Assembly (NCBI RefSeq): GCF_003258595.1
Contig: NZ_QHHQ01000007.1
Location: forward strand, 310,001 to 374,000
Direction of reading: 5' to 3'
Length of the DNA stretch: 64,000 nucleotides
Source: Acuticoccus sediminis
GTDB lineage: Bacteria > Pseudomonadota > Alphaproteobacteria > Rhizobiales > Amorphaceae
Under the pieces are notes generated by a model, which saw nothing but the letters and a program-made list of their open reading frames with translations, ran no database searches and had not been told where the DNA came from. Below, one piece after another: positions 2,826-30,625 of the stretch; positions within the stretch are counted from its first letter, which is position 1, and every line of letters starts with the position of its first letter. The position numbers and the translations under genes were made by a program.

Positions 2826-5800
2826 TCAGATCAGGAAGTCGGCATCGCTGAGGTTGGTGAGGAGCTGGTTCTCCAGCGTCAGCGTGTTGCCGTCGCCGAA
2901 GTCGATCACCACGTCGTCGCCATCCTGGAGGAACACCGCGTCGCCGATGCCCTCGGCCTGGACCACGTCGATCCCGGCCTGGAAGTCCTGGATCACGTCG
3001 GCGCCTTCCTCGTAGACGAAGGTGTCCGCGCCGTCGTTGCCGAACATGGTGTCGTCGCCCGCACCGCCGGAGATCAGGTCGTCGCCGTTGCCGCCGAAGA
3101 TCTGGTCGTTGCCCTCGCCGCCGAAGGCCCGGAAGGCGATGTCGTCGGGACCGAGGTCGCGGGCGTCGATCCTGTCGTCGCCGCCGAGGCCGTTCACTTC
3201 CAGCGTCTCGGTGTTGTCGATGTCGATCGTGAACTCGCCGAAGTTGGTCCGCGCGAAGGTGATCTCCCCGCCGACCGACACGACCGAGAACTCGTCGCCG
3301 GCGGTGTCGGAGCCGTTGACCTGTGCGGTGTCGTTGCCGTCGCCGCCGTCCATGAGGTCGGAGCCGTCGCCGTTGTTCCAGACCATCAGGTCGTCGCCGT
3401 CGCCGCCGTTCATGGTGTCGTCGCCGCGGAAGCCGACGAGCGTGTCGTTGCCGGCGTCACCGGCGAGGACGTCGTCGCCCTGGCTGCCGACGAGGAGGTC
3501 GTTGCCGTCGCCGCCGTTCTCGGTCAGGGCGATCTGGCCCGCCTCGAGCTCGCGGGCGTCCATCGAGTCGTCGCCCGCGCCGCCGTTCAGCTCCAGGATC
3601 TCGGAGTTGCGGATGTCGAGGGAGAAGTTGCCGAAGTTGACGCGCTCGAAGAAGACGTTCTCGCCGTTGGTGCTGACGACGAACTCGTCGCCGGCGGTGT
3701 CGGAGCCGTTGACCTGTGCGGTGTCGATGCCGTCGCCGCCGTCCATCAGGTCGGAGCCGTCGCCATTGTTCCAGACCATCAGGTCGTCGCCGTCGCCGCC
3801 GAGCATCGTATCGTTGCCGCGGAAGCCGACCAGCGTGTCGTTGCCGGCATCACCGGCGAGGGTGTCGTTGCTCTCGCTGCCGATGAGGAGGTCGTTGCCG
3901 GCGCCGCCGGACGCGTCCACCGCGACGTCCTCGTTGGCCAGCGCGCTGGCGTCGATGGTGTCGTCGCCCCCAAGACCGTTGAGGTCGAGGATTTCCGTGT
4001 TGCGGATGTCGAGCGAGAAGTTGCCGAAGTTGGTGCGCTCGAAAATGACGTTCGCACCGTCGGAGCGGACCTCGAAGACGTCGCCGGCGTCGTTCGAGCC
4101 GTTGACCTCGGCGGTGTCGATGCCGTCGCCGCCGTTCATGACGTCGGAACCGTCGCCGTTGTTCCAGACCATGGTGTCGTCGCCGTCGCCGCCGCGCATG
4201 GTGTCGTCGCCGCGGTCGCCGACGAGGGTGTCGTCGCCGTCGCTTCCGATCAGGTAGTCGTTGCCGTCGCCACCGGAGGCCTTCAGCGCGATCAGTCCGG
4301 CGCCGAGGTCGCTGGCGTTGATGGTGTCGTCGCCGCCGAGCCCGTTCACCTCGAGGACTTCGGTGTTGCGGATGTCGATCGAGAAGTTGCCGAAGTTGAC
4401 GCGCTCGAACAGGACGTTGCCGCCCGCGGAGCTGACCTTGAAGAGATCGCCGGCGTCGTTCGAGCCGTTCACCTCGGCGGTGTCGTCGCCCCAGCCGCCG
4501 TTCATGGTGTCCGAGCCGTCGCCGTTGTTCCACACCATGCGGTCGTTGCCGTCGCCGCCGCGCATGACGTCGTCGCCGCGGTCGCCGACGAGGAGGTCGT
4601 CGCCCTGACTGCCGATGAGGAGGTCGTTGCCGTCGCCGCCGCGCGCCTCGACCGCGATGAGGCCGGCCTGCAGCTCGCTGGCGTCCAGCGTGTCGTTGCC
4701 GCCGAGGCCGTTCACGCTGAGCTTGTCGGTGTTGACGATGGTCAGAGTGAAATTGCCGAAGTTGGTGCGCTCGAAGAAGACCGTGTCGCCGGCCGAGGTC
4801 ACCTTGAAGGCGTCGCCGGCCTCTTCGGAGCCGTTGACGACCGCGATGTCGAAGCCGCGGCCGCCGTTCATGCGGTCGGACCCGTCGCCGTCGTTCCAGA
4901 TCATGAGGTCGTTGCCGAGGCCGGACCGCATGACGTCGTTGCCTTCGTCGCCGACGAGGCGGTCGGCGCCGTCGCTGCCGATGAGGAGGTCGTTACCCTC
5001 GCCGCCGGACATGCGAAGGCGAATGTCGCCCGCCTCCAGGCCGCTGGCGTCGATGGTGTCGTTGCCGCCCAGGCCGCTCACCTCGAGCGTCTCGGTGTTG
5101 ACGATGTCGATGGAGAAGGGGACGAGGTTGGTGCGCTCGAAGAGGACGCCGTCCGGCACCGAGTTGATCTCGAACGCGTCGCCCTGCTGCTCGGAGCCCT
5201 CGACGACGGCGGTATCCTTGCCGGCGCCGCCGTCCATCAGGTCGGAGCCGTCGCCGTCGTCCCACTTCATGATGTCGTTGCCGGCGCCACCTTCCATGGT
5301 GTCGTCGCCGACCTCGCCTTCCAGGATGTCGTTGCCCTGGCTGCCGATGAGGAGGTCGTTGCCCTCGCCGCCGTCGAGCTCCAGCCGGATGAGACCCGCG
5401 GGGAGGGCGCTGGCGTCGATGGTGTCGTCGCCGCCCAGCCCGTTCACCTCGAGGAACTCCGTCTCCTGGATGAGGATGTTGAACGGGCCGAGGTTGGTGC
5501 GCTCGAAGAAGACGCCGCGCGGGATCGCGCTGATCTCGAACGCGTCTCCTTCGGTCTCCGAGCCGTTGACCTCGGCGGTGTCGCGTCCGCGGCCGCCGAT
5601 CATCAGGTCGTTGCCGTCGCCGTTGTTCCACTCCATCTCGTCGGCGCCGGCGCCGCCCTGCATGGTGTCGTCGCCCTTGTCGCCGATCAGCGAGTCGTTG
5701 CCGTCGCCGCCGCGCAGGTCGTCGTCGCCGTCGCGGGCCTCGATCGTGTCGTCGCCGCCCAGACCCTTGATCAGGTCGTCGGTCGCTTCGCCGATGATCG

Positions 5801-5840
5801 TCTCGCTGTTGTTGGAACCGATGATCGTATTCTCGGCCAT
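2826..5840 (-). CDS. Large RTX (hemolysin-type) calcium-binding repeat protein
   Basis: This 1004-residue acidic protein consists almost entirely of Gly/Asp-rich nonapeptides (GGxGxDxLx) interleaved with seven copies of a beta-rich module containing [FA]-[AE]-R-[TV]-N-[FL] (FERTNFG-type) followed by an NTE.LEVNGLGGDD strand. It has no Sec signal. The last 70 residues (NDGADTFVYEEGADVIQDFQAG through to SDADFLI) look like an RTX C-terminal secretion segment, so export by type I secretion is expected, although no T1SS gene is in this window. Calcium-dependent folding outside the cell is family knowledge. The role could be surface layer, adhesin or matrix; no protease or lipase domain is visible. 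The start at 5840 is preceded by AGGAG. The regulator at 6300 diverges from it. Confidence 0.9.
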   Translation of the reverse strand: MAENTIIGSNNSETIIGEATDDLIKGLGGDDTIEARDGDDDLRGGDGNDSLIGDKGDDTMQGGAGADEMEWNNGDGNDLMIGGRGRDTAEVNGSETEGDAFEISAIPRGVFFERTNLGPFNILIQETEFLEVNGLGGDDTIDASALPAGLIRLELDGGEGNDLLIGSQGNDILEGEVGDDTMEGGAGNDIMKWDDGDGSDLMDGGAGKDTAVVEGSEQQGDAFEINSVPDGVLFERTNLVPFSIDIVNTETLEVSGLGGNDTIDASGLEAGDIRLRMSGGEGNDLLIGSDGADRLVGDEGNDVMRSGLGNDLMIWNDGDGSDRMNGGRGFDIAVVNGSEEAGDAFKVTSAGDTVFFERTNFGNFTLTIVNTDKLSVNGLGGNDTLDASELQAGLIAVEARGGDGNDLLIGSQGDDLLVGDRGDDVMRGGDGNDRMVWNNGDGSDTMNGGWGDDTAEVNGSNDAGDLFKVSSAGGNVLFERVNFGNFSIDIRNTEVLEVNGLGGDDTINASDLGAGLIALKASGGDGNDYLIGSDGDDTLVGDRGDDTMRGGDGDDTMVWNNGDGSDVMNGGDGIDTAEVNGSNDAGDVFEVRSDGANVIFERTNFGNFSLDIRNTEILDLNGLGGDDTIDASALANEDVAVDASGGAGNDLLIGSESNDTLAGDAGNDTLVGFRGNDTMLGGDGDDLMVWNNGDGSDLMDGGDGIDTAQVNGSDTAGDEFVVSTNGENVFFERVNFGNFSLDIRNSEILELNGGAGDDSMDARELEAGQIALTENGGDGNDLLVGSQGDDVLAGDAGNDTLVGFRGDDTMNGGDGDDLMVWNNGDGSDLMDGGDGNDTAQVNGSDTAGDEFSVVSVGGEITFARTNFGEFTIDIDNTETLEVNGLGGDDRIDARDLGPDDIAFRAFGGEGNDQIFGGNGDDLISGGAGDDTMFGNDGADTFVYEEGADVIQDFQAGIDVVQAEGIGDAVFLQDGDDVVIDFGDGNTLTLENQLLTNLSDADFLI
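3249..5507 (-). repeat. Seven-copy tandem module array inside the RTX gene
   Basis: The codons for the F-[AE]-R tripeptide recur at 3249, 3642, 4035, 4401, 4767, 5133 and 5499. The spacing is exactly 366 bp (122 codons) for four intervals and 393 bp (131 codons) for the two nearest the C-terminus. The 27-bp difference equals one RTX nonapeptide. Within units, WNNGDGSDxMxGG, D-T-A-x-VNGS and FERTNFGNF are nearly invariant. Confidence 0.9.
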
Positions 5841-6299
5841 GGCCTCTTCTCCTGTCGCTGTGTCGGGGCGCCAGTGCGGCGCTGCTCCGACTGCGAGCTA
5901 AGAGGCGGCGGCGGGGGCCGCTGTGCTGGCGAGCATAGTCGCCGGACGCCGGTCCCTTGAATTGCCTGACGATATTTGCCGGCGAACGACAATGGTACGA
6001 CGTAGAGTTGCCAATGACGGGTGGGGTCGCGTGACGTGTCCCCGCGGTTCGCTACCCATCGTCGCCGATCGCGCAGCAATCCTGGCGTGTGCGCCTCGCG
6101 TTCGGGAGCCGGCGGCGGGCAGCCGGAGACGTGAATTGCCCGGTGTGATGCTGAGCACAACCGGTGGCGACGCTATCGCGGCGGGGGATTGGCTGGTATC
6201 TCTGGATGAGGCCGCGATGATCGGAACCCTGGATTTCGGCGCGGCCGATCGGGCGGGCGCGGGATCCTGCGTTCACGAGACGTCGCAGGGGATGAACGT
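5841..6299. other. Divergent intergenic region, RTX gene / regulator
   Basis: This region of about 460 bp holds the divergent promoters of the large RTX gene and the winged-helix regulator. Open frames cross it, but none has a convincing start, Shine-Dalgarno or protein-like composition. No clear operator or RNA gene was found by eye. Confidence 0.5.
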
Positions 6300-7767: not shown

Positions 7768-10161
7768 CTACAGCAGGACGATGTGGTCGAGCGGATCGGT
7801 GAAGTGGAGAAGGCGGACCATGAAGTCCGCCGAGCCGTCGCCGTCGGTGTCGCCGCGCAGGATCGTCAGGTCGTCCTGAACGCTTGCGGTGAGCTCGCCG
7901 GCCGAGTGGCTGAAGTGGTCCACGAAGACGAAGTGCTGGTCGCCCGCCTCGGTCGTATCCGCATCGATCCGCTGCAGGTTGATCCGGTCGCGGCTCGAAA
8001 GATCGGTGATGACGTCGGCCGCTCCGGGCGCCGAATCGTCCGCCTTCGAGAAGCCGAAGATGTCGCCCGCCCGGCCGCCGGTGAGGCGGTCCCGGCCCGC
8101 GCCGCCGACGAGGTGGTCGCTACCCTCGCCGCCGAGGAGGACGTCGTCGCCGTCGTTGCCGACCAGCGTGTCGTCTCCCCCGCCGCCGTCGAGTGTGTCG
8201 GTGCCCTTGCCACCGTCGAGCGAGTCCATGCCGTCCTCGCCGGAGAGGCGGTCGGCGTCCTGGTTGCCCCGCAGCGTGTCGTCGCCCCGTCCGCCATGGA
8301 GCGCGTCGTCCTGGCGACCGCCGGAAAGGCTGTCGTCGCCAGCGTCGCCGATCAGCGAGTCGTTCCCGTTGCCGCCGCTCATGTCGTCGCCGGAAAGGTC
8401 CGAGGCGCCCCGGGGCGCCGAGCTGCGCAACAGGTCATCGCCCCGGCCGCCGATCAGCGTGTCGAAGTCGAAGCCCCCGGTCAGCGTGTCGTTGCCGACG
8501 TCGCCCATCAGGAGGTCCGGCGCGTCGCCGCCGCCGATCCGGTCGTTGCCGCGCCCGCCGTCGATGGTGTCACGGCCCTCGTCGCCGGTGAGCGTGTCGT
8601 CGCCGCCGTCGCCGAAGATCAGGTCGGCGCCCGCACCGCCCTGCGCGTGGTCGTTCCCGGAGCCGCCGTGGATGGTGTCCTTGCCGCCCTCGCCGACGAG
8701 GCGATCGTCGCCGCGGCCACCGTCGAGCTCGTCGTTGCCAAGTCCGCCCGCCAGCCGGTCGTCGTCGAGGCCGCCGGACAGGCTGTCGGCACCGTCGCCG
8801 CCCATGAGGTTGTCGTCGCCCGGTCCGCCCTGGATCGTGTCGTCGCCTGCCGCACCGTCGATCCAGTTGGCGGCATCGTCGCTGAGGATCAGGTCGGCGC
8901 CGGGGAGGGCGCGGATGGTGGGTGTGTCCGCGCCGACCTCGATGCGCGACATCGTCTGCTCGGTGAGGTCGACGACGGTCCCGTCGGCAAGCCTGATCTC
9001 GATGAGGTCCGCCGCGATCGCGCCGAGATCGGTGTCGTATGCGCCGGCGAGGGTGAGCGACGAGCCCCCTGCGACCTCGATGACGATATCGCGACCCGAG
9101 ACATGGAAGGCGAGATCCTCGGCACGGATCCCCGCGCCGAACTCGACGGTCGACATGCCCTGGGCAGCGTCGCCGGGGTCGCGTCCGGCCCCGGATCCGG
9201 CGAGGGTGTCGTGGCCGAACGCCCCGTCGAAGACGTAGGTGTCGTGCCCGGTGATGCCGTCGAGGATCTCGTCGGCCGGCCGGCTGACGATCCTGTCGTC
9301 GAGATGGGTTCCGGCGAGCGTGTCGACGCCCTCGCCGGTGAGGATGACGGGCATCGACAGGAGATCGATGACGGTTCCGTCGTCGAATTCGACGAGCAGC
9401 GTCTGCTCGGGGTGGTAGTCGAGCCGGTCCAGGTCGACGACCGTGACCTCGAGGCCCGACCCGAAGATGAGGCCAAGGTCCTTCCGGTCGGGATCGTCTC
9501 CATATTCGACGCCGGCAAACGCATCGAGCTGGCCGTATTGCAGCCTCATCTCGTCGGGTGACACGCCGGAGACGGCGATCCGCGCACTGCTGACGCGGAA
9601 GTCGCCCTGCCACTCGTCGACGACGGCATAATGGCGTGTCGATCCGTCCGGCGGTGCGGCGAACTCGTATCGGTCCTCGCCCTCCCATCCGCCGGCCAGG
9701 ATGGCGTCGTTGTCGCCGCCGACGAGAGTGTCACTCCCGTCGAACCCGAGTGCCCAGTCGACCCCCAGTGGTCCCGCACCCGAGACGACGCGGTCGCTCC
9801 AGAGGGTGCCGATGGTGAAGTCCTGGACATCGTAGAGATCGAGCGACGTGCCGTCGGCGAACGTTGCGATGTGATCGACCTGCCACTCGCTACTCGTGTA
9901 GCTCCTGATCAGGATGGTCCCGCCGGGAACGGTCGCCTGAAAGGCGAAATGGTACGCCGTGAGGCCGGTGACGCCGTCGGTCGCGAGGATATGCTCGAAC
10001 TCGGACGGCTCGATGCGCAGGACCGGTTCGAGGGTGAGGTCTGCGGCTGTCGTGTCGTCGAGGAAGTTGAGGGAAAGGCCGGAAAACCCTCCGCCGCCCC
10101 CGGCCGGGTAGCCATAGACCTCGATATGGCCGAAGGGGCCGTCGAACGTAAACTCTGACAT
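7768..10161 (-). CDS. RTX calcium-binding protein with serralysin-type C-terminal domain
   Basis: The first half of this 797-residue protein is a unique beta-rich region (FDGPFGHIEVYG..., several FDDGTVIDL strands). The second half is about twenty GGxGxDxLxGG nonapeptides. The C-terminal segment (QHFVFVDHFSHSAGELT, then GDTDGDGSADFMVRL and a hydrophobic IVLL end) matches the peptidase-M10 C-terminal domain that follows RTX repeats and carries the type I secretion signal. No HExxH protease motif is present, so this is not a serralysin. ATG 10161 is preferred because GGGAG lies 6 nt upstream; ATG 10167 abuts that GGGAG. A near-perfect 24-bp palindrome lies about 160 bp upstream. Confidence 0.88.
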   Translation of the reverse strand: MSEFTFDGPFGHIEVYGYPAGGGGGFSGLSLNFLDDTTAADLTLEPVLRIEPSEFEHILATDGVTGLTAYHFAFQATVPGGTILIRSYTSSEWQVDHIATFADGTSLDLYDVQDFTIGTLWSDRVVSGAGPLGVDWALGFDGSDTLVGGDNDAILAGGWEGEDRYEFAAPPDGSTRHYAVVDEWQGDFRVSSARIAVSGVSPDEMRLQYGQLDAFAGVEYGDDPDRKDLGLIFGSGLEVTVVDLDRLDYHPEQTLLVEFDDGTVIDLLSMPVILTGEGVDTLAGTHLDDRIVSRPADEILDGITGHDTYVFDGAFGHDTLAGSGAGRDPGDAAQGMSTVEFGAGIRAEDLAFHVSGRDIVIEVAGGSSLTLAGAYDTDLGAIAADLIEIRLADGTVVDLTEQTMSRIEVGADTPTIRALPGADLILSDDAANWIDGAAGDDTIQGGPGDDNLMGGDGADSLSGGLDDDRLAGGLGNDELDGGRGDDRLVGEGGKDTIHGGSGNDHAQGGAGADLIFGDGGDDTLTGDEGRDTIDGGRGNDRIGGGDAPDLLMGDVGNDTLTGGFDFDTLIGGRGDDLLRSSAPRGASDLSGDDMSGGNGNDSLIGDAGDDSLSGGRQDDALHGGRGDDTLRGNQDADRLSGEDGMDSLDGGKGTDTLDGGGGDDTLVGNDGDDVLLGGEGSDHLVGGAGRDRLTGGRAGDIFGFSKADDSAPGAADVITDLSSRDRINLQRIDADTTEAGDQHFVFVDHFSHSAGELTASVQDDLTILRGDTDGDGSADFMVRLLHFTDPLDHIVLL

Positions 10162-10794
10162 CGCCATCTCCCGTCGCACCGTCCCGCGGAGGCATCCCGG
10201 CACGCCGACTATTGGCGGCCGCCCCGTCGATCCCGATCGCAAGGATGCAATCCGCTCCGCGGCCAGCCGCTTGATCCACCCGATCCTTCGCCGTGTGCGG
10301 GGCGGACTTCACCATTAGAATACCGTTTGTGCACAAAGGGTATCCGACGCTTGCCCTTATGAGGGCGATATTTCAGGCATCCCAGTTTTTCTCGCCCGGC
10401 ATAGTCCGAGCCTGGGCTGGTCGAGTCTAGGGAGAAATCGCCGGGCGACGCTCAATCGTCCCGCATCGCGTCGCGCTCGCGGCCCTGATGTGCACAGAAA
10501 TCGCCAGTTTCCACGCCCCATCAGCGAGATTCCGGGAGCGCCATCTCGTGTTGTAGGGGCGAGATCCGGCGAATTCTGCTGTGAGAATATGTGTCCCACC
10601 GAAGGATGGGCGAGCAGCCGGAAGAGGAAATGCCACGTGGCAGCCGTCGGGCGCCAGATTGACAGATTCAGGTCCAGAATTGTCGAGAGGATAACAAAAC
10701 CGTGACTTGATGCATAATGCGGTGAGTGGAACTGTGTTCGAGCATTTTTGCATAAGCTATTTCATGGCGCATCCGCCACGCGGAGGATCCCTCC
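10162..10794. other. Divergent intergenic region between two RTX genes
   Basis: About 630 bp, visibly poorer in GC than its surroundings, with promoters firing in both directions. The outstanding element is the palindrome at 10320-10343. The stretch near 10690-10760 (CTTGATGCATAATGCG, TTTTTGCATAAGC) is AT-rich and likely holds the promoter of the plus-strand RTX gene. No credible gene was found here. Confidence 0.5.
10320..10343. promoter_or_regulatory. 24-bp near-perfect palindrome, probable operator
   Basis: The left half ATACCGTTTGTG and right half CACAAAGGGTAT are complementary at 11 of 12 positions; the only mismatch is at 10325/10338. The core TTTGTGCACAAA is perfect. It lies about 160 bp upstream of the minus-strand RTX start at 10161 and about 450 bp upstream of the plus-strand RTX gene. 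A dimeric regulator site is the likeliest role. Confidence 0.55.
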
Positions 10795-12729
10795 TTGGCT
10801 TTGAACTACGCCCTCGCGTTCGCCACGACAGATGCCCAAAGTATCTGGGGGGCGGGAGGGCCAACGGAGATCCGGGGCGGCGATACGATCGTCCATACGT
10901 ATTCTGCCGCCTACAGTCCGGTCGACTATTCGGATTTCCTCGGAAACTACGCGTCGATGAGGTTGAGCGCCGGCGTCACTCCCGGCTTCGCCTACAGTTA
11001 CGAGGTCGATCCCGGCACCTATACCTCGAACCTGCGCTACAGTGCGTCGATCGACGTGCCCTCCAGCGCGCCTGACATCGGCGGCGACTTCGCCCTGTCG
11101 GGCGTCAGCGACCTCGTCGGGGGGCTGTTCGAGACGACCTCGCCGACCATCAAGGCCGCGGTCGACCTGATGCTGGGTGTCGATCTAGACCTTGCCCTGA
11201 AGGTCGGGAACAATAGCATTTTTGGCGATATCCGGCTCATCAACTCGACCTTCAACATCGTCGACGAGCCGGCGGTCCCGAGCAACCTCATCACCATCGA
11301 CGGCCTCGAGGTGACCCTGTTCAAGGACTTCCTCGACGCCTTCTCCGGCCTGTCCGATGCGTCCGGCAACGCCGCCCTCGCGGTCACCGATTTCCTCTAC
11401 GACCAGCTCTATACGTTCGACCTCGGCGAGGTGAACGTCGCGCTCAATGCCGTCGCGCCCACCGGCGCCGGCGTGACCGTCACCTACGACAACCTGACCG
11501 CCTCCTTCGGCCGCAACGGCGTGTCGACGGAAGTGGCCGACCTCGGCGTGAACATCCCCGTCGTCGACACCAGCACGGGCCCGGACGGCGATGCGTTCGA
11601 CAGCCGCGGCGAGGACGACTTCTTCGATGTCGACGCCGACCTCGACGCGCTGATTCCGGTCCTGCCCGTCGGCGACGTCAGCCTCGGGACCAACGTCGCC
11701 GAGCTCACACTGACCGGCTACGACGTCGACTTCGGGCCGGACATCAACCTCTACCAGGAGTTCGAGTTTCTGCCCGAGCTCTACGTCGGGTTCGAGACCG
11801 ACAAGGCGGTCAGCGTCGACGGCGAGCTCGTCCGGTCCTTCAAGGTCGCGCTCGACGATCTCGCCTCGCTCACCCTGTCGCTCGACGACGCGACGACCTT
11901 CACACCGACCTTTTCGGTCGGCGGCACGCTCCGCTCCGAAACCGGCTTCGCCTTCGACGTCGACTTCACCATCGAGGGGCTGAGCGCGGCGGTGCGGCTG
12001 GGGTTTGCGACGTTGTCCACGCCGTCCCTGTTCTCCGGCAGCCTGCCGTTCGACATCGCCGACCTCTCGCTCTTCGACGAGATCTTCTCCGTCGCCGGGT
12101 TCAATGCTGTCGAGGACAGCGCCTTCACGATCGTCCCGCAGATCCCGGTCACCGACGGGGACGACGACCAGCTCGGCACGACCGCCGGCGACGAGGTCGA
12201 TGCGCTGCGGGGCAACGACACGATCCGGGGCCTGCTGGGCGACGACACCATCGAGGGCTCGGGCGGCGACGACCGCCTCGTCGGCGACAAGGGCTTCGAC
12301 TGGCTGGACGGCGGCAGCGGGTTCGACAACCTGATCGGCGGGAACCAGGCCGACACCCTCGTCGGCGGCAACGGGCAGGATACGCTTCTCGGCGGCGAGG
12401 GGCGCGATGAACTCTTCGGCGGCATCGGGCGCGACCGGCTGAACGGCGGCGAGGCGGCCGACATCATCGATGGCGGCGAGTTCGACGACATACTCATCGG
12501 CGGCGGCGGCAAGGACCGGTTCGTCCTCCACGTCGACGGCGGGCGCGACCGCGTCATGGACTTCGAGCTCAACGAGCGCCTCGACGTGTCCGACTTCGAC
12601 CTGACGTTCCGTGAGCTCGACGTGTTCGACCGGCGCGGCAACACCGTCGTCCTCGGCGACGGCGGCCTCGAGGTGGTGCTCGTCGGCTTCGACGTCGACG
12701 ATCTCTCCGGCAAGCACTTCGTCTTCTGA
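10795..12729 (+). CDS. RTX calcium-binding protein with long unique N-terminal region
   Basis: Residues 1 to about 450 of this 644-residue acidic protein form a unique beta-strand-rich region without a Sec signal. Residues of about 455-560 carry roughly ten Gly/Asp nonapeptides (GGDDRLVGDKG, GGNGQDTLLGG and similar). The end (FVLHVDGGRDRVMDFELNE, then VVLVGFDVDDLSGKHFVF) fits an RTX type I secretion C-terminus. TTG 10795 is chosen because GGAGG sits 8 nt upstream; the TTG at 10801 is an alternative. It diverges from the RTX gene at 7768-10161 and is convergent with the next SDR. The role is unknown; the N-terminal region does not resemble an enzyme I recognise. Confidence 0.85.
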   Translation: MALNYALAFATTDAQSIWGAGGPTEIRGGDTIVHTYSAAYSPVDYSDFLGNYASMRLSAGVTPGFAYSYEVDPGTYTSNLRYSASIDVPSSAPDIGGDFALSGVSDLVGGLFETTSPTIKAAVDLMLGVDLDLALKVGNNSIFGDIRLINSTFNIVDEPAVPSNLITIDGLEVTLFKDFLDAFSGLSDASGNAALAVTDFLYDQLYTFDLGEVNVALNAVAPTGAGVTVTYDNLTASFGRNGVSTEVADLGVNIPVVDTSTGPDGDAFDSRGEDDFFDVDADLDALIPVLPVGDVSLGTNVAELTLTGYDVDFGPDINLYQEFEFLPELYVGFETDKAVSVDGELVRSFKVALDDLASLTLSLDDATTFTPTFSVGGTLRSETGFAFDVDFTIEGLSAAVRLGFATLSTPSLFSGSLPFDIADLSLFDEIFSVAGFNAVEDSAFTIVPQIPVTDGDDDQLGTTAGDEVDALRGNDTIRGLLGDDTIEGSGGDDRLVGDKGFDWLDGGSGFDNLIGGNQADTLVGGNGQDTLLGGEGRDELFGGIGRDRLNGGEAADIIDGGEFDDILIGGGGKDRFVLHVDGGRDRVMDFELNERLDVSDFDLTFRELDVFDRRGNTVVLGDGGLEVVLVGFDVDDLSGKHFVF

Positions 12730-26124: not shown

Positions 26125-26192
26125 GGGCTACGACGATGGCGTGCGCCGCCGTATCGAGATCGGGACACTCGGGTGTCCGCCTGAGGTTGCTG

Positions 26193-27086
26193 ATGGACAC
26201 CACGCGCGACGGGCGGCTTCGCCGCTATGGCGAGCTTGACGGCAAGACCTTCCTGATCGGCGTCGGGGCCGCGAAGTGCGCGACGAGCTGGCTCTGGGCG
26301 TACCTCGCCACGCTCGACGGCGTGGTCGTCTCGCCCCTGAAGGAGCTGCACTTCTTCAACGCGAAGGTTCGCCGGCACGCGATCGAGGACATGGACACGA
26401 CGGCGATCAGGCGCCTCGCGTTCCATATCGTGCAGGAGGGGGACGCTTGCGCGCGGCTGCGGACCGAACCGCTCTTCCAGGCCAGCGTGGACCGGGTCGC
26501 GATGATGTACGACGACAACGCGTACTTCGGCCACTTCGCCCGGCTCTGCACCGGTGCGCCGGACGCCCGTGTCGTCTGCGACATCACCCCGTCCTACTCC
26601 CTCATGGGCCGCGAGGGGTTCGGGGCGATGCGCGCGTTCTGCGCCTCTCAGGACGTCGCGGTGAAGCTCGTCTACGTCATGCGCGATCCGGTCGACCGGC
26701 TCTGGTCGCACGTGCGCTACTACAACCACCTCGACTCGCGCCGGAATGCGGAGACGTCATGGCGTGACCTCCTCGACGACCCCCGCTTCATGGGACGCTC
26801 GGACTACGCCGACGCGGTGGAGGCGCTCGACGCGACCTTCGCGCCGGGGTGCGTCCACTACGTCTTCTACGAGGATCTCTTCACGGATGCCGCGCTGGCG
26901 GACCTCTGCGCGTTCCTGGATGTTGAGGCCAGACCCACGGACATGTCCGCCCGGCGCAACGAGACCGAGATCCGGACGCCGATCCCGGACGAGGCCCGCG
27001 CCCTGATCGCCGAGCGGCTGGCCCCGCAGTACGACTTCTGCCGGCGCCGCTTCGCCGGCCGCGTGCCCGAACGGTGGGCGCTGTAA
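26193..27086 (+). CDS. PAPS-dependent sulfotransferase
   Basis: This 297-residue cytosolic sulfotransferase has a 5'-phosphosulfate loop LIGVGAAKCATSWLWAYL (about 21-38) followed by SPLKELHFFN. The 3'-phosphate motif VMRDPVDRLWSHVRYY is at 162-177. These motifs bind the sulfate donor PAPS. The SPLKELHFF and RDPVDRLWSH signatures are commonest in carbohydrate (heparan/Nod-factor-like) sulfotransferases, so a glycan or lipid acceptor is one possibility. The other is the 60-residue acidic peptide encoded next, with its single Asp-Tyr. ATG 26193 is chosen (TGAGG 6 nt upstream); a longer in-frame start at 26136 would add 19 residues. Confidence 0.88.
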   Translation: MDTTRDGRLRRYGELDGKTFLIGVGAAKCATSWLWAYLATLDGVVVSPLKELHFFNAKVRRHAIEDMDTTAIRRLAFHIVQEGDACARLRTEPLFQASVDRVAMMYDDNAYFGHFARLCTGAPDARVVCDITPSYSLMGREGFGAMRAFCASQDVAVKLVYVMRDPVDRLWSHVRYYNHLDSRRNAETSWRDLLDDPRFMGRSDYADAVEALDATFAPGCVHYVFYEDLFTDAALADLCAFLDVEARPTDMSARRNETEIRTPIPDEARALIAERLAPQYDFCRRRFAGRVPERWAL

Positions 27087-27114
27087 GGGCGAGAGCGGTC
27101 CTGTCGCCCGATTT

Positions 27115-27161
27115 CGTGACTGCCGTCACGCTCCACGCGCTTCGCGTGTGATCGCGATCAC
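27115..27161. promoter_or_regulatory. Cluster of three inverted repeats upstream of the small peptide gene
   Basis: CGTGAC/GTCACG (27115-27120 and 27125-27130, 4-nt spacer), CACGCG/CGCGTG (27134-27139 and 27143-27148) and the perfect 14-bp palindrome GTGATCGCGATCAC (27148-27161) lie side by side. The last is TGTGA-N6-TCACG, close to a CRP-type site. It lies 29-75 bp after the sulfotransferase stop and 120-170 bp before the peptide start. It could be operators for the peptide gene, or the middle stem could act as a terminator. Confidence 0.5.
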
Positions 27162-27283
27162 GCCCACCGGTTTCCGATCTGGATGGCGCCGCGCCCGATC
27201 CCCATTCATGGTCAAGCGGCGGAACAACGCGTTCGAAGTCGCTAGGAAACGTCTACTTTTGAACAGATAAAGGAACAATACTC

Positions 27284-27466
27284 ATGGCTTGTGAAGAAAC
27301 CATCCCGAACTTCTTTTCCGGTATCAAGTCGTCCGAGGGGCGTGACGAGCAGCGTGACCGTCTCGACAGCGCCATCTCGAACCTGCGCGACTCGGATTAC
27401 GTGAGCGGCCACGACTCTTCCGACTTCGGTCACACCTCCGACGCCGGTGATTTCGGAATATTCTAG
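27284..27466 (+). CDS. 60-residue acidic peptide with a single Asp-Tyr; candidate sulfotransferase substrate
   Basis: ATG 27284 follows AAAGGA by about 10 nt, and the frame ends at TAG 27466. It has its own upstream dyads and a strong downstream terminator, so a real transcript is likely. The peptide has no signal sequence. The N-terminal third is mixed (one Cys at position 3), the middle is charged (GRDEQRDRLDSAISNLRD), and the last 24 residues are an Asp/Ser/Gly/His-rich tail (RDSDYVSGHDSSDFGHTSD) with recurring D-[YF]-x steps. Y39 is its only tyrosine and is preceded by Asp, the context favoured by tyrosyl-protein sulfotransferases. The length equals that of the sulfated Xanthomonas peptide RaxX as I recall it. 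No protease or ABC exporter gene is adjacent. The function is unproven. Confidence 0.65.
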   Translation: MACEETIPNFFSGIKSSEGRDEQRDRLDSAISNLRDSDYVSGHDSSDFGHTSDAGDFGIF

Positions 27467-27554
27467 AGCCCCGGCTTTCCCGGGCGCGAATGCCCATCCG
27501 GCTTGCTCCACGATCGGGGCGAGCCGGCCCTGTCCCGGGTCCCCCGGACGATGA

Positions 27555-27580
27555 GGCCGCCACCTTGTGGGCGGCCTTTT
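27555..27580 (+). terminator. Rho-independent terminator after the peptide gene
   Basis: GGCCGCC (27555-27561) pairs with GGCGGCC (27570-27576), followed by TTTT (27577-27580). It lies 90 bp after the peptide stop, and it separates that transcript from the flavoenzyme gene. Confidence 0.75.
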
Positions 27581-27715
27581 CGCATGTCCGGGCCGGGGAG
27601 AGTTGCGGGTCCCGCAGTCGCCGTCACGCGCGGGTTCGGCGTTCCGGCCTGGGTTCGGCGCGCGGACGCGCTATGGTTCCGGTCGGGCCCGAAACGCTGC
27701 ACGAGGACGGACACG

Positions 27716-29497: not shown

Positions 29498-30292
29498 TCA
29501 GAAGGCGAACCAGGACGCGTCGACTTCGTCGACGGTCACGCCGGCGACGAACATCCGTGCATTGTCGTCGGCGATCGCGACGCCGTTGGCGCGCTGGTAG
29601 AGGTCGAAGTCGTCGAAGCTGGTGGCGCCGGTCTCGACCAGGATGGTGTCGACGCCGGTCTCCCAGTCGAGGATGCGGTCGACCCCCTGGTCGCGGAACA
29701 CGAAGGTGTCGGACCCTTCGTCACCGAAGAGCCGGTCGTTGCCGCGGCCGCCGTCCAGGACATCGTCGCCGAGACCGCCGACGAGCACGTCGTCGCCGAT
29801 GTCGCCGAAGAGGTCGTCGTCGCCCTTCATGCCGAACAGGCGGTCGTTGCCGAAGTCGCCCTTCAGTTCGTCGGCGTCGCCCGTCCCGGCGATGTTGAAG
29901 CCGAGACGCACCGACACGCTGTCACCCGGTGCGTATTCGATGCCGGAGAGGTCGAGGAACAGCGAGGACTTCGTGACGTACGCGTCGCTTTCGCTCACGT
30001 CGAGCGTGGTGCGGCCGGTGATGATCGAGACGTCGTTGAGCGTCAGGCCCTTCGGGCTCTCGAATTCGGGAATATTCAGGATCCCGCCGTTGAAAGGCCC
30101 GTCGTCGAAGTTGCCGGATTCGTCTTCGATCACCGTATACGTGGCCGTCGAGTCGGCGATGTCCAGTGAACCGACCGCCCCGACATTGGGAAACTCGACG
30201 CCGCTGGTGACGGTCGAGGGGAAAGGACCCGCGACGACGTTGTCCGGATCGTCCTTGAACAGTTCGACCGTGATATCCAGGCCCAGTAGCAT
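29498..30292 (-). CDS. Small RTX calcium-binding protein
   Basis: Residues 1 to about 140 of this 264-residue acidic protein are beta-rich without repeats (LDITVELFKDDPDN...). About seven nonapeptides follow (GDFGNDRLFGMKGDDDLFGD, GGLGDDVLDGG). The C-terminal segment (SDTFVFRDQGVDRILDWETGVD, ending ASWFAF) looks like a type I secretion signal. ATG 30292 is preferred, with GGGAG 6 nt upstream; ATG 30322 would add ten residues. It is the fourth RTX gene of the window, about 17 kb from the others, behind an AT-rich promoter region. Confidence 0.82.
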   Translation of the reverse strand: MLLGLDITVELFKDDPDNVVAGPFPSTVTSGVEFPNVGAVGSLDIADSTATYTVIEDESGNFDDGPFNGGILNIPEFESPKGLTLNDVSIITGRTTLDVSESDAYVTKSSLFLDLSGIEYAPGDSVSVRLGFNIAGTGDADELKGDFGNDRLFGMKGDDDLFGDIGDDVLVGGLGDDVLDGGRGNDRLFGDEGSDTFVFRDQGVDRILDWETGVDTILVETGATSFDDFDLYQRANGVAIADDNARMFVAGVTVDEVDASWFAF

Positions 30293-30625
30293 TGCGAACT
30301 CCCGTGGAAAGTAGCCCGACATTCATGTCGGTTAGGTAGGATGATAATTAACCTATATTAAAATCATATGATTTAAAGCTGAACTTTGCATGACGGTCGC
30401 AACGGGCCGTCCGCAGGTCCTCGATCGCCCCCGCAAACTGCGGCGTCAACGATGTTGGGCGATGCCGGAGGAGCGGGGTTGGCGAGGCGCTCCGGCGGCG
30501 TCTTCGGCGCCGCCGCCGAGACCGCGGATCGCTCTCGCGAAGCCCGGACGCCCACCTCTCACATGCTCCGCATGGGGACCGGCGGGCGGGGCGCTTTCGG
30601 ACTGCGCCCGTGGTAGTCCCAAGTC
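30293..30625. other. AT-rich promoter region between divergent RTX and hydrolase genes
   Basis: About 333 bp. The stretch of about 30330-30380 is strikingly AT-rich for this genome (GATAATTAACCTATATTAAAATC) and includes the perfect 14-bp palindrome AAATCATATGATTT at 30361-30374. It probably holds the promoter and operator of the small RTX gene. No gene is seen. Confidence 0.5.

Follow-up and report, generated by a model that had tools for sequence, protein, structure and literature searches.

A sulfotransferase clade and its small acidic partner proteins, with a putative type I secretion tail

Described systems and the locus in the window

The closest described system is RaxX-RaxST-RaxAB of Xanthomonas, where a sulfotransferase gene lies next to the gene for a small protein. 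According to the available excerpt of PMC6637879, the RaxX precursor is 60 residues long and its export by ABC-type secretion is predicted; the same excerpt describes raxX homologues as limited to Xanthomonas, and raxST homologues elsewhere as not associated with raxX. For substrates of type I secretion systems (T1SS), the accessible part of PMC2642768 gives an acidic residue with hydrophobic residues at the C-terminus as a rule for proteases and TliA, and reports that the necessity of this rule is disputed for one lipase. Among the literature matches listed (titles and beginnings of abstracts), no paper deals with the pair of sulfotransferase and small protein described below.

The window, which is the whole 64-kb stretch of DNA analysed here, contains a complete sulfotransferase ORF of 297 aa at positions 26193–27086 (+), with its ATG at 26193. 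Starting instead at an in-frame ATG at 26136 would extend the protein by 19 residues, an extension that is absent from the homologues. On the same strand, 197 nt 3' of the sulfotransferase gene, is an ORF at 27284–27466 encoding an acidic protein of 60 aa, the length of the RaxX precursor. The Shine-Dalgarno-like sequence AAGGA (27270–27274, +) is located 9 nt before its ATG. Three short dyads occupy the spacer at 27115–27161 (+) (27115–27130, 27134–27148, and 27148–27161), and a terminator-like 13-nt stem at 27549–27582 (+) runs into TTTT. The gene order, the dyads, the Shine-Dalgarno sequence, and the stem had all been described in the first-pass annotation, and the ORF list and a dyad search find them as described. 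A scan with consensus promoters and terminators did not call the stem at 27549–27582 a terminator and found no sigma-70 site for the peptide gene. The spacer dyad TGTGATCGCGATCACG at 27146–27161 is CRP/FNR-like by eye. The pair is flanked by a LysE-like gene on one side and a FAD-oxidase-like gene on the other (both named by eye). RTX/calcium-binding repeat proteins are also encoded in the window, at 2829–5897 (−), 7771–10308 (−), 10756–12726 (+), and 29498–30322 (−).

The window is 70% GC and rich in chance frames, and 93 ORFs with a length of 50 aa or more overlap 14 kb of it. By size alone the 60-aa ORF is not beyond chance, and the case for it rests on conservation among relatives. Its GC content by codon position (54/44/74%) is gene-like, though weaker than that of the enzyme (67/47/93%).

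The translated peptide contains exactly one tyrosine, Y39 (codon at 27398–27400, +), within R-D-S-D-Y-V. The pattern D-[YF]-x is repeated three times (D38, D47, and D56), and the peptide has 13 D/E and 5 K/R residues. The single tyrosine directly after Asp, its acidic setting, and the D-[YF]-x repeats, which had first drawn attention to this peptide, are thus correctly read. The peptide begins with MACEE (27284–27298, +) and ends with DFGIF (27449–27463, +). Its AF2 model has a pLDDT of 59 with one helix at residues 17–36, is mostly without confident structure, and is uninformative.

The enzyme and the small protein in other genomes

A scan for homologues of the enzyme over one genome per species (84,980 species) yielded 50 loci. 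Within the same order, the full-length homologue nearest to the enzyme is L023, a locus identical to L056. Behind it are three small acidic ORFs in tandem, which end in NFDFGGDDFGWM, NFDFGSDDFGWM, and DFDFGIDDFSWM. Behind nearly all close homologues there is a small ORF with the start M-[AP]-[ED]-D and an acidic, aromatic, and hydrophobic tail, for example DNVPPDLTDGFDFLL or FTEGFDFIL. The enzyme of Ruegeria pomeroyi DSS-3 is followed by a protein of 87 aa that is annotated as hypothetical, and this pair corresponds to SPO_RS22060 and SPO_RS22065. The old tag SPOA0433 in the available part of PMC4809877 denotes an esterase and not a member of the Ruegeria pair. The 49 peptides compared are 53–98 aa in length, and the gap between the enzyme and peptide genes is 96–250 nt, with a median of 134, at the 35 same-strand loci.

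An intact small acidic ORF is adjacent to 43 of the 45 clade enzymes with readable flanks; at L157 it was found by reading all frames. At L063 (genome G820) the adjacent small ORF has a broken frame. At L047 none is adjacent, and its genome (G931) has the peptide on another contig. No small acidic ORF was seen beside 11 outgroup enzymes (for L083 within only about 200 nt of 3' flank) or beside the more distant enzyme L143. The enzyme and the small protein therefore form a conserved and nearly exclusive partnership. The first-pass annotation had proposed a search for peptide homologues beside sulfotransferases in relatives and had staked its reading on a conserved reading frame, and the loci above bear it out on both points. 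At eight outgroup loci (L082, L083, L084, L085, L087, L088, L089, and L090), the sulfotransferase, which is 28–35% identical, is near nuoC- and nuoD-like genes (named by eye), and at L085 and L089 its gene is between the nuoC-like and nuoD-like genes of complex I.

Two enzyme trees were built, a quick tree with 45 partner-bearing rows and another with 42. In both, the partner-bearing enzymes are on one side of a branch, with an SH-aLRT of 89 in the quick tree and support of 99/99 in the other. The window enzyme groups with L069, L056, and L060 in the 42-row tree (97/83) and not in the quick tree. The small ORF of L024 is on the opposite strand and convergent to the enzyme. Since the convergent cases L024, L158, and L159 form a single subclade, this arrangement was inherited. 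An RTX-type frame (L158, 3–1403) is found directly upstream of one enzyme of this subclade.

The number of peptide copies varies, as is the case for the substrates of a modifying enzyme. There are three copies at L056 and two each at L053, L079, and L069, and two unlinked peptides (G913 C25 and G931 C1) are both in enzyme-bearing genomes. In a leave-one-out search with near-copies withheld, 41 of 48 peptides ranked first in their own locus, and for 38 of the 41 the E-value was 0.01 or lower. Among the peptides that failed are L052, L024, L069_2, L056_2, and L056_3, and L024, L052, and L069 are also weak by sequence. None of 38 peptides matched NCBIfam, and Pfam gave one weak match to MF_alpha_N (E 0.0078). 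In eight close pairs, dN/dS is 0.086–0.216 for the peptide and 0.108–0.206 for the enzymes, and in these pairs the small protein is under purifying selection.

The module is scattered. A search of 385 genomes from the class matched the enzyme in 6 (with weak matches in three of these), and it is present in 5 of 397 genomes from the order and in 16 of 394 from family f74, which is probably Rhodobacteraceae-like, judging from loci identical to named ones. Among the 394 f74 genomes, 16 have the enzyme, 14 have the peptide by HMM, and 13 have both (hypergeometric 1e-20); one of these 13 (G820) has the peptide in a broken frame. In the three enzyme-bearing genomes without an HMM match, the peptide is present on inspection. 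The occurrence of the peptide without the sulfotransferase, which the earlier reading had held to be damaging, is not what these genomes show. All 16 with the enzyme carry the peptide, and the remaining 378 genomes gave one weak peptide match (G1035, E 0.0063), which is taken as chance, being partial, inside a 389-aa frame, and in a genome without the enzyme. Of the 38 rows used to train the peptide model, many come from genomes that it later matched, so this co-occurrence count is not blind. Across 17 genomes of family f67 the model gave no match, though three of them carry the peptide by inspection. As it misses divergent members, these three and the window's own peptide included, little can be concluded where it gives no match.

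The window's own peptide is divergent. A search with the peptide alone found no credible homologue among 100 relatives. It gave matches at E ≤ 1 in 19 of 101 genomes (its own included), with a best non-self E of 0.03, mostly inside far longer frames, and there was no match in viral contigs. The family was reached only via the enzyme, followed by reading of the flanks. With the window peptide withheld, the family model placed it fourth among 755 frames (E 7.8) and did not recover it; an 8-row model of more distant members, chosen afterwards, placed it first (E 0.44). Its start, MACEE, has C at the third place, unlike the family start M[APTS][DE][DE], which is seen in 45 of 49 peptides. No close relative of this peptide was found, and it is not among the dN/dS pairs. 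Its membership is based on its location after an enzyme that falls within the clade, the MACEE start, the acidic make-up, the size, and the DFGIF end, and not on sequence score.

Possible acceptors of the enzyme

Pfam confirms the window enzyme as a sulfotransferase, with PF00685 at 35.5 bits (cut-off 22) and PF13469 at 32.1 bits (cut-off 27). Among 38 enzymes scanned, PF13469 was matched in 37 and PF00685 in 33. The enzyme alignment contains 38 invariant columns. The motifs are GAAKCATSW, which we take to be the 5' PAPS loop, KELHFF, which contains E51 and presumably resembles that of glycan sulfotransferases, and RDPVDRLWSHVR, which we take to be the 3' PAPS motif. The AF2 model of the enzyme has a pLDDT of 91.4. 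The nearest solved folds by Foldseek are 3rnl and the sulfotransferase domains of olefin synthase and curacin, followed by the 3-O- and N-sulfotransferases (3-OST/NDST) and then by TPST. TM-scores are 0.51–0.62 to 3-OST/NDST and 0.40–0.46 to TPST, so TPST is not the nearest fold by this measure, whereas the best E-values of the two groups are similar (1.6e-5 and 1.9e-5). The caution of the first-pass annotation that the sulfotransferase is more of the carbohydrate type holds by TM-score, though these E-values do not separate the two groups. The proximity of the fold leaves the acceptor unfixed. S47, A97, D100, R101, Y106, H114, W190, and C283 are among the residues that are constant in the clade and not in the outgroup, and such residues may constitute a partner-binding surface.

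Neighborhoods vary between loci. Gene clustering over the 50 loci revealed no other gene common to most of them; of the further clusters that represent real genes, an SDR-like one is the largest (18/50). A fabA-like gene is near 14 of the 50 loci, and the R. pomeroyi pair (L042, 4536–7857) is located between fabB and fabA; the fab locus thus seems to be a favored site.

These observations bear on the idea that the enzyme sulfates a glycan or a lipid, while the small protein is an unmodified helper, exported or bound, such as an adaptor, a carrier, or a lectin-like partner. The TM-scores nearer to 3-OST/NDST than to TPST and the KELHFF motif, which resembles that of glycan sulfotransferases, are in line with it. 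The fabA-like neighbors hint at lipid metabolism, and the peptide alignment contains no sulfate-accepting residue conserved across the family. However, no neighbor other than the small protein is shared by most loci, and several peptide copies, tandem or unlinked, for a single enzyme suit substrates better than a subunit. Taken together, a glycan or lipid acceptor is a serious but rather unlikely explanation.

If the peptide itself is the acceptor, tyrosine is the residue suggested by RaxX. The first-pass annotation considered the lone Asp-Tyr as a possible site of this kind, with the peptide, sulfated on Y39 in the window, being a bacterial tyrosine-sulfated signal. Y39 follows Asp in an acidic stretch, at least one Tyr is present in 28 of the 49 peptides, and the peptides of L024, L133, L134, and L139 have 3–5 each. 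Three Mameliella peptides and L157 have DYVPGDEF in common. The presence of Tyr is clustered on the enzyme tree, where it needs 11 changes compared with a mean of 17.8 after shuffling (a value as low in 1 of 500 shuffles), a clustering to which near-copies contribute. On the other hand, 21 of the 49 peptides contain no Tyr, and Tyr accounts for 1.4% of residues while Phe accounts for 8.9%. At least six of the changes fall on well-supported branches, and the related peptide L053_1 reads DLLPGDEF where its relatives read DYVPGDEF. The surroundings of Tyr are scarcely more acidic than those of Phe, with 1.5 and 1.3 D/E within three residues, respectively. The Asp-Tyr is therefore not a conserved site, and at the family level Tyr39 is not conserved in the way that the first-pass annotation expected. 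As Tyr is patchy across the family, a tyrosine-specific function of the entire family is unlikely, and a tyrosine-sulfated signal of the RaxX kind is an improbable account of the pair. Sulfation of Tyr may occur in the window's own lineage. Each of the 49 peptides contains at least three Ser/Thr.

Export tail, proposed module, and comparison with known systems

The C-termini of the peptides were compared with two patterns. The strict tail, D/E followed by 3–4 hydrophobic residues at the C-terminus, is seen in 25 of 49 peptides. The same tail occurs with a mean of 0.7 and a maximum of 4 in 500 shuffles, and in none of 46 ordinary Ruegeria CDS. Of 20 RTX proteins with complete tails in the window's genome, 9 have it, for example SDFLI, SDFLV, and GDFIL. 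A looser tail is seen in 39 of 49 peptides (shuffled mean 5.1, maximum 11), in 2 of the 46 ordinary CDS, and in 13 of the 20 RTX tails. DFGIF of the window peptide, a T1SS-type tail interrupted by G, fits only the looser pattern. The RTX tails were taken from 30 loci of the window's genome, in which there are 183 HemolysinCabind matches genome-wide. This genome also encodes two PrtD-type T1SS ATPases above the curated cut-off. Since RTX proteins of this genome carry tails that match those of the peptides, the small protein is likely to be exported by type I secretion, as far as can be judged from sequence.

T1SS genes are beside the pair at only one locus of 45, L069 (nine loci having short flanks, and with the L069 proteins as queries). 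Here, genes for PrtD (610.8 bits, cut-off 510) and HlyD (356 bits, cut-off 209) are directly upstream of the enzyme. T1SS genes had appeared to be present at six loci; the loci other than L069 hold ABC transporters at 26–28% identity. The two L069 peptides lack the T1SS-type tail and have a different C-terminus. The corresponding ORFs (L069, 7094–7270 and 7621–7800) are arranged in tandem behind the Roseibium enzyme, and their C-terminal halves are nearly identical. These halves, which include a Tyr (GDSYEVATDND) and have a basic end, differ from those of the other family members.

The tail could also be explained without export. The small protein would then stay inside the cell and regulate the enzyme, its Asp-hydrophobic end being a degradation or PDZ-type tail. 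Joint inheritance of the enzyme and the peptide would be expected of such a regulator, an acidic peptide mostly without confident structure is compatible with it, and T1SS genes are not adjacent at 44 of the 45 loci. Against it, the strict tail recurs among RTX proteins encoded in the window's genome but in none of the 46 ordinary CDS, and extra tandem and unlinked copies are odd for a regulatory subunit. An internal regulator is highly improbable.

The reading to which we incline, somewhat more than we doubt it, is a two-gene module in which a dedicated sulfotransferase modifies a small protein exported by a T1SS, both sulfation and export being inferred from the data above. The sulfotransferase would be dedicated to the small acidic protein encoded next to it. 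In the cytoplasm, it would sulfate one or more hydroxyl side chains of this protein, on Ser/Thr or, in peptides that have it, on Tyr. A T1SS would then recognize the C-terminal Asp-Phe-hydrophobic tail and carry the product out of the cell. The conserved motif at the N-terminus, M-[AP]-E-D-...-G-F-x-F, could be the recognition element for the enzyme, the variable middle could contain the acceptor or acceptors, and the C-terminus could be the export signal. A sulfated surface or signal protein outside the cell would be the natural guess. The lack of a conserved acceptor, a fold nearer to glycan sulfotransferases by TM-score, and the adjacency of T1SS genes at 1 of 45 loci count against this module. 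Of the original proposal that the peptide could be the substrate of the enzyme, the conserved pair, purifying selection, and a nameable export route speak for the substrate, and the lone Asp-Tyr is not supported as the conserved site. A broader proposal, put forward tentatively as a possibility, is a widespread, undescribed class of sulfoproteins in Rhodobacterales and some Hyphomicrobiales. These would be small and acidic, would be sulfated on Ser/Thr or another presented hydroxyl by an enzyme dedicated to them, and would be released by T1SS although they lack RTX repeats.

The pair would be a second pair of such an enzyme and a small protein, with 45 loci that include the cultured R. pomeroyi DSS-3. 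With it, one could examine whether the sulfation of exported small proteins is common among bacteria, which residue is modified, and what purpose this serves. Should the peptide prove not to be the substrate, it still represents a protein family that lacks a model in Pfam and NCBIfam and is tied to a single clade of sulfotransferases.

Among known systems, the heparan sulfate 3-O- and N-sulfotransferases and the bacterial PAPS sulfotransferases of solved structure (3rnl, 4gox, and 4gbm) resemble the window enzyme in fold and motifs. Their identity to it is 9–23%, and the window clade is distinct and carries a small-protein partner. T1SS substrates of the AprA/TliA type, as described in the excerpt of PMC2642768, share the acidic and then hydrophobic extreme C-terminus, whereas the window family consists of proteins of 53–98 aa that are paired with a sulfotransferase and have no RTX repeats in the translations seen. 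Similar to RaxX-RaxST-RaxAB, a sulfotransferase gene adjoins a small-protein gene (at 43 of 45 clade loci), a small cluster is inherited as a cassette, and export is probably by ABC-type secretion, as predicted for RaxX. In contrast to RaxX, a conserved Tyr acceptor is absent, and both conserved ends are different. The putative export signal is of the tail type and not an N-terminal double-glycine leader; GG between residues 13 and 46 is present in 6 of 49 peptides, and the window peptide is not among them. In contrast to RaxAB, there is no adjacent peptidase-containing exporter, and the adjacent genes at L069 alone are of the PrtD and HlyD types. Compared by these features and not by the RaxST sequence, the module is RaxX-like in plan and is not a member of the RaxX family.
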